64,000 nt of DNA from Thermoanaerobacterium sp. RBIITD. Lineage in GTDB: Bacteria > Bacillota > Thermoanaerobacteria > Thermoanaerobacterales > Thermoanaerobacteraceae. The notes beneath the pieces are model-generated. The model saw only the letters and a program-made list of their open reading frames with translations. It did no database searches and had not been told where the DNA came from. The stretch lies in the NCBI RefSeq assembly GCF_900205865.1, contig NZ_LT906662.1, positions 2,245,411-2,309,410 on the forward strand, in the 5' to 3' direction. The position numbers and the translations under genes are program-made. Of the stretch, positions 3,259 through 16,832 are shown piece after piece; within the stretch, counting starts at the first letter, position 1; each line of letters opens with the position of its first letter.

Positions 3259-4022
3259 TGCTTTCAAAGAGAATAATACCATGTCTTGATGTAAAAGATG
3301 GAAGAGTTGTAAAAGGGGTTAATTTTGTAAATCTCAAAGATGCTGGTGATCCTGTAGATATTGCAGAAGTCTACAACAAAGCAGGTGCAGATGAGATAGT
3401 TTTTCTTGATATTACAGCGTCATATGAAAAACGTGACATAATGATAGATGTTGTCAAAAGAACATCTGAAAAAGTCTTTATTCCACTTACTGTTGGTGGT
3501 GGTATCCGCACAGTTGATGATTTTAGAAAGATATTAAAATCTGGCGCAGATAAGATATCAATAAATTCGGAGGCTGTCAAAAATCCCGATTTAATAAAGG
3601 ATGCGGCAGTGAAATTTGGATGTCAATGTGTTGTTGTTGCAATAGATGCCAAAAAAAGGAAGGATAATACCGGATATGATGTCTATATTAATGGCGGGAG
3701 AGTTAATACAGGGTTTGATGCGGTTGAATGGGCAAAAAAAGTTGAAAGCCTTGGAGCAGGTGAAATTCTTTTAACAAGCATGGATGCTGATGGTACAAAA
3801 AACGGCTATGATGTAGAACTTACGAGGATTATAGCCGAAGAAGTGAGGATTCCTGTTATAGCATCTGGTGGTGCAGGGAAAAGGGAACATTTTAGGGAAG
3901 TATTGACCGATGGTAAAGCTGATGCAGCATTAGCAGCGTCATTATTTCACTATGGTGAGCTTAAGATAAGTGAACTTAAAAAGTATTTAAGAGAATGTGG
4001 TGTACCAGTTAGAATAATATGA
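3258..4022 (+). CDS. hisF: Imidazole glycerol phosphate synthase, cyclase subunit
   Basis: This TIM-barrel subunit uses HisH-derived ammonia to convert PRFAR into imidazole-glycerol phosphate and AICAR. The N-terminus [20 protein letters not shown] contains catalytic D11, and the second catalytic Asp lies in VVAIDAKK. Two adjacent ATGs exist at 3255 and 3258. The second gives the canonical N-terminus and better spacing from GGAGG at 3246-3250. Length is about 254 residues, normal for the family. Confidence 0.95.
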
Positions 4023-4036
4023 AAGGAATTATGCAT

Positions 4037-4705
4037 ATGAATATAGAAGAGTTAAAATTCAATGAAAGAGGGCTTATTCCTGCGATAGTACAAGATTACA
4101 ATACAAAAGAAATCCTTATGATGGCATATATGAATAAAGAAAGTCTTAAATTAAGCATAGAAAAGGGCGAGACATATTTTTTTTCAAGAAGCAGACAAGA
4201 GCTGTGGCATAAAGGTGAGACATCAGGGAATACGCAGAAGATTAAAAAAATCTCATATGACTGTGATGGTGATACACTTCTTATAGAGGTAGAACCGAAA
4301 GGACCTGCATGCCACACCGGAAATGTAAGCTGCTTTTATAGAGATATATTAAAGAGCGAAGATATAAATAATAGCGATGCATCGATACTTTATAATCTCT
4401 ATGGTAGAATAAAGGGAAGAAAAGAAAATCCTGTTGAAGGGTCGTATACAAATTATCTTTTTGATAAAGGGCTTAATAAGATTCTTAAAAAAATCGGCGA
4501 AGAAAACACAGAAATAGTTATTGCCGCAAAAGAAGATTCAAAAGACGAAGTTATTTACGAAATTGCAGATTACTTATATCACCTTATGGTTCTTATGGTT
4601 GAGAAAGAAGTAAAACTTGATGAGATTTTTAATGAACTTTCCAAAAGATATTACAAAACTGATGAATTCAGAGAGGAACATAAAAAGAGGAAAGATATAA
4701 AGTGA
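4037..4705 (+). CDS. hisI (hisIE): Fused phosphoribosyl-AMP cyclohydrolase / phosphoribosyl-ATP pyrophosphatase
   Basis: This is a bifunctional HisI-HisE fusion for steps two and three of histidine synthesis. The N-terminal half has cyclohydrolase motifs ([30 protein letters not shown], the metal-site DCDGD, and CHTG). The C-terminal roughly 90 residues are the helical pyrophosphatase ([29 protein letters not shown]). In-frame ATGs at 4019, 4031 and 4037 are all possible. AAAGGA at 4022-4027 best fits 4037, while 4019 overlaps the hisF stop. It is the last gene of the visible operon. Confidence 0.93.
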
Positions 4706-11448: not shown

Positions 11449-13809
11449 ATGATGAAGGCAATAATAATGGCAGGCGGTGAAGGAAGTAGACTTAGACCAC
11501 TTACATGCGGTATACCAAAGCCAATGGTACCTGTAGCAGGTAAGCCGGCAATTTGCCATATTATAAAACATCTCGAAAATCATGGTATAAATGAAATGGG
11601 TGTTACCCTTTTTTATTTACCTGATAAAATAAAGAATTATCTATATGACGAATATGGTGATAAGATAAGATATTATATAGAAGATAGGCCGCTTGGCACT
11701 GCTGGTAGCGTCAAAAATGCTAACGATTTCCTCGATGAAACTTTTGTTGTAATGAGCGGCGATGTTATTACAGATATTGACTTAAATGAAGCGTACGATT
11801 TTCACAAAAAAACAGGTTCAATGGCGACGCTTTTATTGACAAGAGTCGATATACCACTGGAATATGGTGTAGTAATAACAAATGGTGAAGGTAAAATTGT
11901 GAAGTTTCTCGAGAAGCCATCATGGGGTGAAGTCTTTAGTGATACTATTAACACCGGTATTTATATAATCGAACCGGAAGTTTTAAAATTAGTACCTGAA
12001 AACAAACAATTTGATTTCAGCAAAGATCTATTTCCGCTATTACTAGAGAAAGGAATACCTATGTACGGATATGTAAGTGATAAATACTGGTGTGATATAG
12101 GAAGTGGTGTACAATATCTAAAAAGCCATCTTGATTTGCTAAAGGGCGATGTTGATATAGGTTTTAAAGAAAAGGTAAAATGTGATGGGATTATTATTGG
12201 TAAAAATGTGAATATTTCAAAAGATGCCAAACTGATCCCCCCATTAATAATAGGTGATGGGACTTCTATCGAGGACAATACTATCATTGGACCATATGCA
12301 ATAATAGGCAAGGATAATTATATCGGATTTGGCAGTACAATTAAAAATAGCGTTCTATGGGATAGAGTAAGTATTGGGCCTAATAACGAGATAAGAGGAA
12401 CGATTTTTTGTAATGGCGTGAAAACCGAGAACAATGTGAGAACATTCGACAATTCTGTAATAGGAGAAGAATCAAAGTTAAATAGTTTTAGCGAGATAAA
12501 GCCTAATACAAAAATATGGCCGAAAAGAGTTATAGGAAGCGGAAATATTATCGACAAAGATATAGTATGGGGCTATAGTGATGAAACTTCAATTTTTGGT
12601 GAAAGAGGAATTAAAGGTAAACTTAATGACAATCTAACACCGGAAAATTTAGTTAAAATCGGTGAAGTACTTGGCAATGTGTTTGTTGGGGATATTCTTA
12701 TCGGTTATGATAACACATCTAAATCAAAATTTGCATTTGATTGTGTCAAGGATGGAATAAGGGCATCAGGTCAAAAGGCATTAATAGCTGGTTTAACAAT
12801 ACTACCTGCCATGAGATATTCAATTAGAAAAAATGGTTATAGTGCAGGTATATACATCAAAAATGATGATGAAGATATACTCAATATCATTTTGATAGAT
12901 AAAAATGGATGTGATGTGGATAAAAGTATCGAAAAAAAGATCCTAAATAAATTTAAAATAAATGACTACAAAATGTCATTTGATTTAAAAGATGAAGAAT
13001 TTAAAGATATAAATAAGGAATATTCTGATTTCATTACAAATAGTAGACTTAAGAAAAACATCGATTTGAAAGTAAAGCTGATGGATGACACAACGAGGAA
13101 TGTATTTCATATAGTGAGTCAAAATAGTTTTAAAGAGCCTGCTATAGCAAAATATGATGTAGGGATAAAAATATCTAATGACGGTGAAGGCATAGAATTA
13201 TATGACAATGAAGGAGAGAAATTTGACGAGGATGAGCTTAACTATTTAAGAATATTGATAGAAAAAGACAATGGTAAAGACGAATTTGTTTTACCTTTTG
13301 ACAGCTCACTATTTTTAAGTGAGATATCAGATGAGCTTAATTTTAAAATAATATCTAGCAAGATTTCTTTATCAGAAAAGATGAAAAAAATGATGGAAAT
13401 AGAAAAAAATAATTATGACCAGAATTCCCAGTTTAATTTAAGCTTTGATGGAATAAATTTTTCCTTCAAATTAATTGATTATTTAGGAAAAAATAAATTA
13501 AAATTATCTGAGATAAAAAAGGCTATACCGAAGAGGTTTAAGCTGAATAAAATGATTAATTGCGAATGGAAGGATAAAGGGCTTATAATAAGGAAATTTT
13601 ATGAAAATCCCGGAAATGCGAAAGCTGAGTTTCTTGACGGGATAAGATTTAATTATGGCAACTCATGGGTGCTTGTTATGCCAGATTCAGAGCTTCCGGC
13701 ATGTAGAATATATACGGAAGCACCGACGAAAGAAAAGGCAGAATTGCTATTAAACAAGTATATCGAATCAGTAAATAGCATCATTAATGGGGATACGAAC
13801 AATAATTAA
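11449..13809 (+). CDS. Sugar-1-phosphate nucleotidyltransferase fused to a degenerate phosphomannomutase-like domain
   Basis: This 786-residue fusion has three parts. Residues about 2-235 are an NTP-transferase with MAGGEGSRLRPLTCGIPKPM, the GDV metal site and EKPSWGE. Residues about 250-375 are left-handed beta-helix hexapeptides. Residues about 385-780 align with the phosphoglucomutase/phosphomannomutase fold. The first part should make an NDP-sugar, probably GDP-mannose or a glucose derivative. In the mutase part I cannot find the catalytic TASHNP serine loop, the DGDGDR metal loop (SNDGEGI stands at that point) or the RxSGTEP phosphate loop (MPDSELP instead). It may be regulatory. ATGs at 11449 and 11452 are both possible. 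Confidence 0.85.
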   Translation: MMKAIIMAGGEGSRLRPLTCGIPKPMVPVAGKPAICHIIKHLENHGINEMGVTLFYLPDKIKNYLYDEYGDKIRYYIEDRPLGTAGSVKNANDFLDETFVVMSGDVITDIDLNEAYDFHKKTGSMATLLLTRVDIPLEYGVVITNGEGKIVKFLEKPSWGEVFSDTINTGIYIIEPEVLKLVPENKQFDFSKDLFPLLLEKGIPMYGYVSDKYWCDIGSGVQYLKSHLDLLKGDVDIGFKEKVKCDGIIIGKNVNISKDAKLIPPLIIGDGTSIEDNTIIGPYAIIGKDNYIGFGSTIKNSVLWDRVSIGPNNEIRGTIFCNGVKTENNVRTFDNSVIGEESKLNSFSEIKPNTKIWPKRVIGSGNIIDKDIVWGYSDETSIFGERGIKGKLNDNLTPENLVKIGEVLGNVFVGDILIGYDNTSKSKFAFDCVKDGIRASGQKALIAGLTILPAMRYSIRKNGYSAGIYIKNDDEDILNIILIDKNGCDVDKSIEKKILNKFKINDYKMSFDLKDEEFKDINKEYSDFITNSRLKKNIDLKVKLMDDTTRNVFHIVSQNSFKEPAIAKYDVGIKISNDGEGIELYDNEGEKFDEDELNYLRILIEKDNGKDEFVLPFDSSLFLSEISDELNFKIISSKISLSEKMKKMMEIEKNNYDQNSQFNLSFDGINFSFKLIDYLGKNKLKLSEIKKAIPKRFKLNKMINCEWKDKGLIIRKFYENPGNAKAEFLDGIRFNYGNSWVLVMPDSELPACRIYTEAPTKEKAELLLNKYIESVNSIINGDTNNN

Positions 13810-13825
13810 TAAAAATTTAATGAAT

Positions 13826-13905
13826 AAGACATTGCAGACTATCTTAAAAATTGATATAGTAAATAGTGGATAGCGCGAAAATTTTGCAATGTCTTTTGTT
13901 TTTTT
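13826..13905 (+). terminator. Terminator after the nucleotidyltransferase gene
   Basis: AAGACATTGCA (13826-13836) pairs perfectly with TGCAATGTCTT (13885-13895) and is followed by a T-rich tract. Part of the loop can extend the stem (CTATC/GATAG). Confidence 0.72.
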
Positions 13906-13934
13906 AATTAAAACAATTTGAAATTGGTGATATA

Positions 13935-14204
13935 ATGGCAAATAAATATATATCGGCATCTGAAATAAATCAATACATGTATTGCCCATATCAATGGTAT
14001 TATGAAAAAAAGTACGGCCATAAGTATATAAATGAACTTCGTGATAAAATTGATACAAAACCTGAGCTTAGTAATTTTAAAAAAGGCATGGAATACCATG
14101 AGAAGTATTATAAAGATATAATATTCATAAGATATAAAAAGATAGCCATATGGATTTTTGTTATTTTGGCCTTAATTTTAATTGGGATAGGATTTTTTAA
14201 ATGA
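13935..14204 (+). CDS. N-terminal piece of a split, membrane-bound Cas4-like protein
   Basis: This 89-residue protein begins with SASEINQYMYCPYQWYYEKKYG. That pattern is typical of the N-terminus of Cas4/RecB-type PD-(D/E)XK nucleases, where the Cys (C17) is one ligand of the Fe-S cluster. The last roughly 22 residues (about 66-87) form one membrane helix. The nuclease core is absent and is encoded by the next gene, whose ATG overlaps this stop. I infer that the two chains assemble into one enzyme at the membrane. Taken alone it would be called hypothetical. Confidence 0.7.
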   Translation: MANKYISASEINQYMYCPYQWYYEKKYGHKYINELRDKIDTKPELSNFKKGMEYHEKYYKDIIFIRYKKIAIWIFVILALILIGIGFFK

Positions 14205-14773
14205 TATTATTAAATACAGTTTTTACACTATTGGTATTTTACATAATAGCAAAAGAGATATTTGAAAAAAGGCCGGCATACAAAGAAATGAAAAGGTCAA
14301 TAGGATTTAAACGTGGCAAGTTAATTTACATAGATAAACAGGAAGAAGTTAAAAGAAAAGGCGTCATATACAGTAAACTCTTAAAGTCTGAGAAATACGG
14401 GATATGCGGAAAACCCGACTATATATATGATATTGGCCGTGAATTGATACCTCTTGAATTAAAGAGCACGAGGGTTGAAGATAATTCACCATTATTGAAA
14501 GATGTTATGCAATTAACGGCATATTTTCTTATAATAGAGGAGGAATTTGGCAAAAAAGTTTTAAGAGGTAGAATTGTATATCAGAATACTATGTTTGAAA
14601 TTTACAATACAGCCAAATTGAGGAAAGATTTGCTTGAAATATTAAAAGAGATGAGGCTTTTAGAATCAGGCAAATTTTTCCCCGAAGAAAAAGGGGATTT
14701 TTTAAAATGTAGATTTTGCCCTTGTAGAGATACGGTATGCGAGGTATACAAAGACAGTAAAGCAAAAATTTAA
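14201..14773 (+). CDS. PD-(D/E)XK Cas4-like nuclease core with N-terminal membrane helix
   Basis: The 190-residue protein starts with a hydrophobic helix (about 2-17), followed by a PD-(D/E)XK nuclease core. The core has GKPD (D73), the LELKS motif (E86, K88) and the QLTAY motif (Q104, Y108). The C-terminus has a cysteine cluster, C170, C173, C175 and C180, in KCRFCPCRDTVC. This is the Cas4-type layout of three C-terminal Fe-S ligands, with the fourth supplied by the preceding protein. No cas gene or CRISPR array is present, so a role in CRISPR adaptation is not supported here. Other DNA processing is possible. Confidence 0.78.
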   Translation: MILLNTVFTLLVFYIIAKEIFEKRPAYKEMKRSIGFKRGKLIYIDKQEEVKRKGVIYSKLLKSEKYGICGKPDYIYDIGRELIPLELKSTRVEDNSPLLKDVMQLTAYFLIIEEEFGKKVLRGRIVYQNTMFEIYNTAKLRKDLLEILKEMRLLESGKFFPEEKGDFLKCRFCPCRDTVCEVYKDSKAKI

Positions 14774-14841: not shown

Positions 14842-15783
14842 GTGTTCAAGAAATTTACTACTTTAGCTATAATTATAACATTATTATTATCAATTACATC
14901 TTGCAGTTTATTAAGGGTCAGAAAGCCTTCAAATAATATAACTACAAAAAAAGCAGTGCAAAAGCCGAAAATTGATTTAAAAGCACAAGAAAATAAAGCC
15001 GCTGAAAATGAAAAATCTACTAATAATTCGGGTGAAAAGCCTAAGGCCGAGACAGTCAATGAAAATATCTATAAAGGCACTTTGAAGACAGACGGACTTG
15101 ATAATACACTATATGGTTGGGGCATGAGGGTCATGCCTGACCATAAAATACCAGAAATAACATCTAAGCAAATGAGCCTTATCAAAAAATACGATGGCAT
15201 ATTTACGGGTGATACCACAAAGAAAATTATATATCTTACATTTGATGAAGGGTATGAAAATGGATATACGCCAAAAATACTTGACATTCTCAAGGCAAAC
15301 AATGTAAAAGCAGCTTTCTTCGTAACAGGACCATATATAAAAGAGCATGGTGACCTTGTAAAAAGGATGGTAGATGAAGGTCATATAGTTGGTAATCATA
15401 CTGTAAATCATCCAAGCTTGCCAAAGGTTTCTGATGAGAGGGTAAAGGAAGAAATAACAAAGCTTGGTGAAATGTTTAAAAATCTTACAGGTAAAGATAT
15501 GCATTATTTTAGGCCGCCTATGGGAGAGTATAGTGAAAGGACACTTTATATAACAAAATCCCTCGGATATAAAACTGTATTTTGGAGCCTTGCTTTTGCA
15601 GACTGGCAGCCACTTCCTGGAGGCTCTGAGGAAAGTTATAATACGGTTATGAAGCGCATACATCCCGGTGCTGTAATACTGCTGCATGCCGTTTCTAAAG
15701 ATGATACGATGGCCCTTGACAGGATTTTAAAAGACCTAAAATCACAGGGATATGTATTCAAATCCCTCGATGATTTAAAGTAA
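14842..15783 (+). CDS. pdaA: Polysaccharide deacetylase, PdaA-type lipoprotein
   Basis: This 313-residue protein resembles Bacillus PdaA, which deacetylates muramic acid residues during spore-cortex muramic delta-lactam synthesis. The N-terminal signal ends in a lipobox (SITSC, C21), so it is a likely lipoprotein. This is followed by a low-complexity K/N/E linker (about 25-75). The NodB domain has TFDEGYENGYT, HTVNHPSL, RPPMGEYSERT, FWSLAFADW and LLHAVSKD. It starts at GTG 14842 after GAGG. An SNP-like difference, DEG instead of the DNG seen in Bacillus PdaA, makes the motif closer to ordinary NodB enzymes. Confidence 0.87.
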   Translation: MFKKFTTLAIIITLLLSITSCSLLRVRKPSNNITTKKAVQKPKIDLKAQENKAAENEKSTNNSGEKPKAETVNENIYKGTLKTDGLDNTLYGWGMRVMPDHKIPEITSKQMSLIKKYDGIFTGDTTKKIIYLTFDEGYENGYTPKILDILKANNVKAAFFVTGPYIKEHGDLVKRMVDEGHIVGNHTVNHPSLPKVSDERVKEEITKLGEMFKNLTGKDMHYFRPPMGEYSERTLYITKSLGYKTVFWSLAFADWQPLPGGSEESYNTVMKRIHPGAVILLHAVSKDDTMALDRILKDLKSQGYVFKSLDDLK

Positions 15784-15806: not shown

Positions 15807-16832
15807 TTGAACCATATTTTGGAAAGAAAGAATCTTTACATGATGGCTATTGCACTTTTATTAAGTTTTGGTGCAATAGCTATCATAATGAAGTTTTCCG
15901 GATATCAAGGATTAAAAGATGTATTGAATATTAATCCTATATATATAGCAATTGTCTTATTTGTAGTGTTTTTAAGCCTTTTAGTTGATACTATTAGGAT
16001 AAAGGAACTTTTAAATGCCCTTGGTGAAGACCTATCAATAGGATATTTGTTTCAGTTTAACTTGGCAACATTTTTTATAGCCTATGTTACGCCATTTGGT
16101 TCAGGGGCTTTGCCTCTTTCTATATACCTTTTAAACAAGAAAAATGTTGCGCCAAATAAGGGACTGATGATAATTACAGCCAAACTATTATTTTCAGGAA
16201 TATTTTTTGGAACGATTCCACCTATACTTCTTATATTTTTCAGAGAGCAATTAGAATTGACACATGCACTTTCAGTATTTGCAATTCTTGTGTCGGCATT
16301 GCTTTTAATACTTTTAATAGTACTAATATACATAATATTAAAACCTGCTTTAATTATTGCGATAATTGATTGGATCGGTAAGTTAAGCTTTATAAAAAGT
16401 ATGAATTACAGTGAATATTTCGAAAGAGCGAAGACAGAGGTAATCGAGTATAATAAAAGATTCAATGAACTTTTCTTGGTGAGCTCTGGCGGTAAACTTT
16501 TGCTGTCACAGCTTTTTTATGCGATACTTTTTTGGATTTTATTTTACAGTATAGCGCCTATTTTAATGATAGCTATGAATATACCCTTTAGTTTGCTCGC
16601 TGTTATATCGAGGCAATTTATATTTTACGATGTGCTTGCATACAATGTTATACCTAGTGGGGCAGGCTTTGTAGAAGTCGGGTTTGCCAGTATATTTTCA
16701 AATATTGTTCCACATGAATTATTAGGAATATTTATAGGCATTTGGAGGTTCTTTACATACTATGTGTATTTAATAATATCAGGCATTGGATTTATTTTTA
16801 TGGTAAGAAAAGGAAATAGAAAATCTGCTTGA
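15807..16832 (+). CDS. Flippase-like integral membrane protein (LPG synthase transmembrane / UPF0104 family)
   Basis: The 341-residue protein has about eight membrane helices and resembles the N-terminal flippase-like domain of MprF and the YbhN/AglD family. The conserved TPFGSGALPLSIYLL near residue 95 and PSGAGFVEVGF near 285 support this. It lacks the cytosolic aminoacyl-phospholipid synthase domain. Translation starts at TTG 15807 behind a strong G-rich site. It follows pdaA by 23 bases and probably shares its transcript, suggesting an envelope lipid or lipid-linked precursor role. Confidence 0.8.
   Translation: MNHILERKNLYMMAIALLLSFGAIAIIMKFSGYQGLKDVLNINPIYIAIVLFVVFLSLLVDTIRIKELLNALGEDLSIGYLFQFNLATFFIAYVTPFGSGALPLSIYLLNKKNVAPNKGLMIITAKLLFSGIFFGTIPPILLIFFREQLELTHALSVFAILVSALLLILLIVLIYIILKPALIIAIIDWIGKLSFIKSMNYSEYFERAKTEVIEYNKRFNELFLVSSGGKLLLSQLFYAILFWILFYSIAPILMIAMNIPFSLLAVISRQFIFYDVLAYNVIPSGAGFVEVGFASIFSNIVPHELLGIFIGIWRFFTYYVYLIISGIGFIFMVRKGNRKSA

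Follow-up and report, generated by a model that had tools for sequence, protein, structure and literature searches.

Two Overlapping Genes Tile the Cas4 Profile and Probably Encode One Membrane-tethered Nuclease

A Probable Cas4-type Nuclease Divided over Two Reading Frames

Two adjacent genes in the window (the whole 64-kb stretch of Thermoanaerobacterium sp. RBIITD DNA that was analyzed) together tile the Cas4 profile, with a predicted membrane helix on each side of the break. Judging from their sequences, the two genes probably specify one enzyme, a membrane-tethered Cas4-type nuclease composed of two chains. Chain A (13935..14204, + strand, 89 aa) consists of the Cas4 N-terminal segment followed by a C-terminal membrane helix, and chain B (14201..14773, + strand, 190 aa) consists of an N-terminal membrane helix followed by the PD-(D/E)XK core of Cas4. 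The first-pass annotation had described a first gene with an N-terminal cysteine motif and a terminal membrane helix, a second gene with an initial membrane helix and a PD-(D/E)XK core, and an overlap of the two at ATGA. All of these features were seen; the 4-nt start-stop overlap is located at 14201..14204 (+ strand).

Chain A matched positions 1-47 of the 180-position model TIGR00372, and the rest of the model, up to position 179, was matched by chain B, whose score of 99 bits exceeds the cut-off of 65. The PADLOC Cas4 profile was matched by chain A at positions 3-53. For PF12705 (PDDEXK_1), the start was matched by chain A and the end by chain B. When compared profile to profile with six aligned intact Cas4 proteins, chain B fell on columns 57-191 (probability 99.4) and chain A on columns 6-24, around the N-terminal cysteine. 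The break between the chains lies downstream of the GxxxH motif and upstream of the nuclease core.

Residues of the Predicted Iron-Sulfur Cluster and Active Site

Cys17 in the YCPY motif of chain A (13983..13985, + strand), the predicted fourth Fe-S ligand, aligns with the invariant N-terminal cysteine of intact Cas4 and is itself invariant in all split relatives. The sequence G51-x3-H55 (GMEYH, 14085..14099, + strand) is equivalent to the GxxxH motif of Cas4 with its predicted metal-binding histidine; both G51 and H55 are invariant in the split relatives and are matched by G38 and H42 of intact Cas4. On the same strand, chain B harbors GKPDY (14408..14422), the first acidic catalytic motif with the invariant D73; E86-L-K88 (14456..14464), the (D/E)xK catalytic motif, in which E86 and K88 are invariant; Q104-x3-Y108 (14510..14524), the likewise invariant QxxxY motif of Cas4/AddB-type nucleases; and C170-x2-C173-x6-C180 (14708..14740), which provides three predicted Fe-S ligands. 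The catalytic signature of the Cas4 family, a PD-(D/E)XK core with D, (D/E)xK, and QxxxY, is thus present in chain B.

Across three lineages, chain A retains ISA, YC, G51, and H55, and the proline of YCP is replaced by alanine in Singulisphaera. Chain B retains D45, S63, G70-x-P72-D73, P84-x-E86-x-K88, Q104, and Y108 as well as E113, G123, N136, C170, C173, and C180. Intact Cas4 proteins keep the matching cysteine, G-x3-H, D, K, Q, and three cysteines. Cysteine conservation, which the first-pass annotation had put forward as a point on which its reading depended, was borne out for Cys17 of chain A and Cys170, Cys173, and Cys180 of chain B in the relatives. Its description of four clustered cysteines in the second gene held in part, because three are invariant across lineages, whereas Cys175 is confined to the family. 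The conserved set is therefore one cysteine in chain A plus three in chain B, the normal count for Cas4.

In Cas4, a single N-terminal and three C-terminal cysteines bind one Fe-S cluster, and the metal is chelated by His, Asp, and Glu of the RecB motif (PMC12538437). The one N-terminal and three C-terminal cysteines are present here but are distributed over two chains, and the usual form of Cas4, a single soluble polypeptide (not a formal criterion of the family), is replaced by two open reading frames with membrane helices. From residue conservation, we strongly infer that the Fe-S cluster is composite, with ligands from both chains. Beyond what the first-pass annotation had noted, the predicted metal-binding histidine of GxxxH resides on chain A, so that the active site would be shared between the chains, too. 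If the folds match, both the cluster and the active site would require both chains.

Membrane Segments

The predicted membrane helix of chain A spans approximately residues 70-88 (14142..14198, + strand) and has basic residues on its preceding side. That of chain B spans residues 2-20 (14204..14260, + strand), as indicated by hydrophobicity and by a helix at residues 2-23 in the predicted model. The mean Kyte-Doolittle values over 19 residues were 3.0 from residue 70 of chain A and 1.9 from residue 2 of chain B. Each chain thus contains one strongly hydrophobic segment, which adjoins the break, and the same was true for all relatives scored. The basic flanks are RYKK before the helix of chain A and KEIFEKRP..KR after the helix of chain B. 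From this placement of the basic residues, we infer that the soluble parts of both chains face the cytoplasm. An AlphaFold model of chain B built from three sequences had a mean pLDDT of 38, with values of ∼70-85 for helix 2-23 and an unreliable remainder.

Occurrence on Plasmids and Relation to Intact Cas4

Chains A and B were used independently as tblastn queries against 72,556 plasmids, and the same architecture was encountered in plasmids of Bacillus subtilis (three) and planctomycetes (two). The best matches of chain B were three B. subtilis plasmids of ∼64 kb, and chain A alone matched only these same three. Their chain B comprises 162 aa and is annotated as "Dna2/Cas4 domain-containing protein"; their chain A comprises 81 aa, contains YCPH and GTKYH, closes with a membrane helix, and ends 4 nt upstream of chain B. 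The planctomycete plasmids, PALBO2 of Paludisphaera borealis and pSINAC03 of Singulisphaera acidiphila, were reached by searching with the Bacillus chain B. They encode A chains of 91 and 88 aa, respectively, and B chains of 169 aa, joined by an ATGA overlap. In the annotation inspected, covering four of the Bacillus and planctomycete plasmids, chain A is labeled "hypothetical protein." The Bacillus and planctomycete B chains scored 58.7 and 46.7 with TIGR00372, below the cut-off of 65. Plasmid pPL62-2 of Planctomyces sp. SH-PL62 carries a decayed pair (locus 380-2342), with an IS701-family transposase gene in the place of chain A and chain B in two frames.

Intact Cas4-like relatives, 24 in number and read among the higher-scoring hits of a search of 348 Bacillota_A genomes, possess their own N-terminal cysteine and no strong membrane helix. 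A fused two-helix version was not found among them. A search of 398 genomes with a chain A profile yielded no further split pair; one further hit was judged to be due to chance. No relatives of the pair were found in the phages and viral contigs searched. In a tree of the soluble parts, 12 split forms grouped together against the 24 intact Cas4 proteins with a support of 94/93 (not starred; long branches), and a single origin of the split forms is likely.

Genomic Context and Possible Role

The gene directly downstream of the pair in 21 of the 21 Thermoanaerobacterales genomes that contain it, by coordinates, and in nine of nine by gene order, is pdaA, encoding a delta-lactam-biosynthetic de-N-acetylase of the spore cortex (14842..15783, + strand; TIGR02884, 344 bits). 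It is followed by a gene for a flippase-like membrane protein (15807..16832, + strand; TIGR00374, LPG_synthase_TM). In the two genomes of a third family of the order, pdaA comes after glyA with no pair between them. Upstream, at 11449-13809 of the window, lies the gene for a 786-aa protein with nucleotidyltransferase, hexapeptide-repeat, and phosphomannomutase domains; several Thermoanaerobacter-like relatives have four other conserved genes between this gene and the split pair. At 13828-13910, inspection by eye reveals an inverted repeat with imperfectly matching arms (GACATTGCA ... TTGCAATGTC) and, after it, a T-rich run. This arrangement is possibly a terminator separating a unit of the two chains and pdaA from the upstream gene, although the terminator scan did not list it.

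On the Bacillus plasmids, a gene for a DEAD/Helicase_C_2 helicase lies ahead of the pair within a series of overlapping genes, and the pair is followed by a plasmid hfq. On B. subtilis plasmid NRS6107_2, this Hfq gene (locus 4433-4657) is immediately downstream of the two chains, and the helicase and chain A are separated by the gene for an unknown 77-aa protein (locus 3453-3686). On the planctomycete plasmids, genes near the pair encode a methyltransferase (N6 or MmeI-like) and a MobF relaxase. The sole constant of the context across lineages is the pair itself.

The first-pass annotation had claimed that no CRISPR locus is present, and indeed no CRISPR repeats or arrays were found within the 64-kb window. 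Neither cas1 and cas2 nor an array, as would adjoin a Cas4 of CRISPR adaptation, accompanies the pair. In the order, where it occupies a constant chromosomal position ahead of pdaA, its setting is that of a solo-Cas4, outside any CRISPR or mobile context; the copies of Bacillus and planctomycetes are carried by plasmids. Two other Cas4 genes exist in the genome, each beside cas1 sequence and more than 0.9 Mb away, and a search of the genome detected cas1 sequence only beside these two. One of them is a complete Cas4 next to a Cas1 match that covers no more than positions 1-47 of 283 (genome positions 1257684-1258309), and this adaptation locus looks truncated. At 689123-690464, a full Cas1 adjoins Cas4.

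Tethering suggests that the substrate is DNA at the membrane. By analogy, the enzyme might process or destroy DNA there, e.g. incoming DNA that is taken up, transferred by conjugation, or injected by phages. We put this role forward tentatively and rank it ahead of general repair, with sporulation third. Its basis is the plasmid neighbors (helicase, methyltransferase, and MobF relaxase) together with analogy; the chromosomal neighbors, pdaA and the flippase gene, do not point to DNA metabolism. A Cas4-like nuclease of Synechococcus restricts the transfer or maintenance of plasmids (PMC10653904), showing that solo Cas4-like enzymes can act in this way.

Somewhat less probable is a general DNA repair nuclease that is held at the membrane by happenstance and has no role toward incoming DNA. 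Such an enzyme would fit with the vertical inheritance of the pair at one constant locus in Thermoanaerobacterales and with the helicase adjoining the pair on the Bacillus plasmids, but two conserved membrane helices would be left unexplained, and the chromosomal copies have no repair gene next to them. The constant neighborhood of pdaA on the same strand, with no terminator found between the pair and pdaA by the terminator scan, invoked the idea that the pair is co-transcribed with pdaA and serves sporulation at a membrane of the forespore or mother cell, with chromosomal DNA as one conceivable substrate. This is unlikely, as the two genomes of the order mentioned above have pdaA without the pair, the plasmid pairs of Bacillus and planctomycetes have no pdaA neighbor, and planctomycetes are not known to form endospores.

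Conservation of the Split

By protein and profile searches, chain B was detected in 21 of 24 genomes of Thermoanaerobacterales, namely in 19 of 20 genomes of Thermoanaerobacteraceae and in both genomes of the sister family. In the twentieth genome of the family, the contig stops at the start of pdaA, the expected site of the pair. The same two open reading frames were seen in all members of the family and the sister family that contain the locus, and ∼29-40% identity is kept in both frames in the sister family. The overlap amounts to 4 nt (ATGA) in the 17 family loci read without interruption and to 16 and 25 nt in the two sister-family genomes. Two draft genomes show a 1-nt indel in chain A with an otherwise normal locus, for which mutation and assembly error are indistinguishable.

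Pooled over six Thermoanaerobacterium loci, dN/dS was 0.056 for the soluble part of chain A and 0.036 for that of chain B, as compared with 0.29 and 0.17 for the respective helices. The soluble parts are thus under strong purifying selection and both chains are maintained, whereas the membrane helices vary in sequence but stay hydrophobic. Conservation of both frames in the sister family and the low dN/dS of the soluble parts show that the pair of reading frames is not due to chance. The first-pass annotation had proposed a natural split and had suggested that relatives be examined for the same split or a fused two-helix form. The former was seen throughout, and no close relative carries one undivided gene at the locus.

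A programmed -1 frameshift at the overlap, by which a single fused two-helix protein would also be produced, is very improbable. Chain B does occupy the -1 frame of chain A in members of the order, and A AAA TGA is present at several junctions. The slippery run is not conserved, however (GAAATGA, TAAATGA, and GAGATGA occur), the -1 frame in the window carries TAA just upstream of the ATG, and a 4-nt gap separates the genes on the Bacillus plasmids. Cas4 genes normally form one reading frame, but we give virtually no credence to the idea of an ordinary solo-Cas4 gene that recently suffered a frameshift or became a pseudogene, as the split is kept across the order and in three lineages under strong purifying selection with membrane helices flanking the break on both sides; a strain-specific frameshift is ruled out by the same two reading frames in all relatives with the locus. 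The occurrence of the two-halves design in three distantly related bacterial lineages points to an ancient arrangement rather than a broken gene.

Proposed Mechanism

For the two-chain membrane nuclease, we propose that the overlap couples translation, so that chains A and B would be made in step. Both chains would insert into the membrane, where their helices may pair into a hairpin, taking the place of the short linker that follows GxxxH in ordinary Cas4. Pairing would bring the segment of chain A onto the core of chain B, with chain A contributing one Fe-S cysteine and the metal-binding histidine and chain B contributing three cysteines, D73, E86, K88, Q104, and Y108. Cluster and active site would then form only where the chains meet in the membrane, and DNA cutting, by exonuclease or flap cleavage in analogy with Cas4, would be confined to the membrane surface.

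If true, this would be an unusual natural case in which an Fe-S cluster and a nuclease active site are both shared by two membrane chains. A membrane-anchored version would give solo-Cas4 a place, the cytoplasmic face of the membrane, and two short genes with catalytic residues in each offer a clean genetic handle. With chain A recorded as a "hypothetical protein," a nuclease of this type gives the impression of being truncated, and its Fe-S site escapes notice. It is conceivable, although we would not count on it, that two-subunit membrane nucleases of this kind are widespread and unrecognized, with cutting switched on only where the subunits meet and DNA crossing the membrane thereby gated.

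Comparison with Known Systems

According to an earlier survey, most Thermoanaerobacterales and many Chloroflexi possess a solo-Cas4 that is monophyletic, and the functions of solo-Cas4 proteins are described there as uncharacterized (Hudaiberdiev et al. 2017, PMC5704561). The solo-Cas4 counted there for Thermoanaerobacterales is probably chain B. Neither "split" nor "transmembrane" occurs in the main text of that paper (PMC5704561), and no split or membrane Cas4 was found in the open-access library searched.

The domain and its chemistry are known, and the two-chain membrane architecture is new. The pair shares the PD-(D/E)XK core, QxxxY, GxxxH, one plus three cysteines, and the lack of a CRISPR context with solo-Cas4 (COG1468/TIGR00372/PF01930) but differs in being two polypeptides, each with a membrane helix, and in the break between GxxxH and the core. 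CRISPR-associated Cas4 has the same domain and motifs, whereas the pair has neither a cas1/cas2 neighbor nor an array. The AddB/PDDEXK_1 (PF12705) Fe-S nucleases exhibit the same layout of Fe-S and nuclease elements; AddB, however, is one large helicase-like chain, and the pair consists of two short membrane chains.
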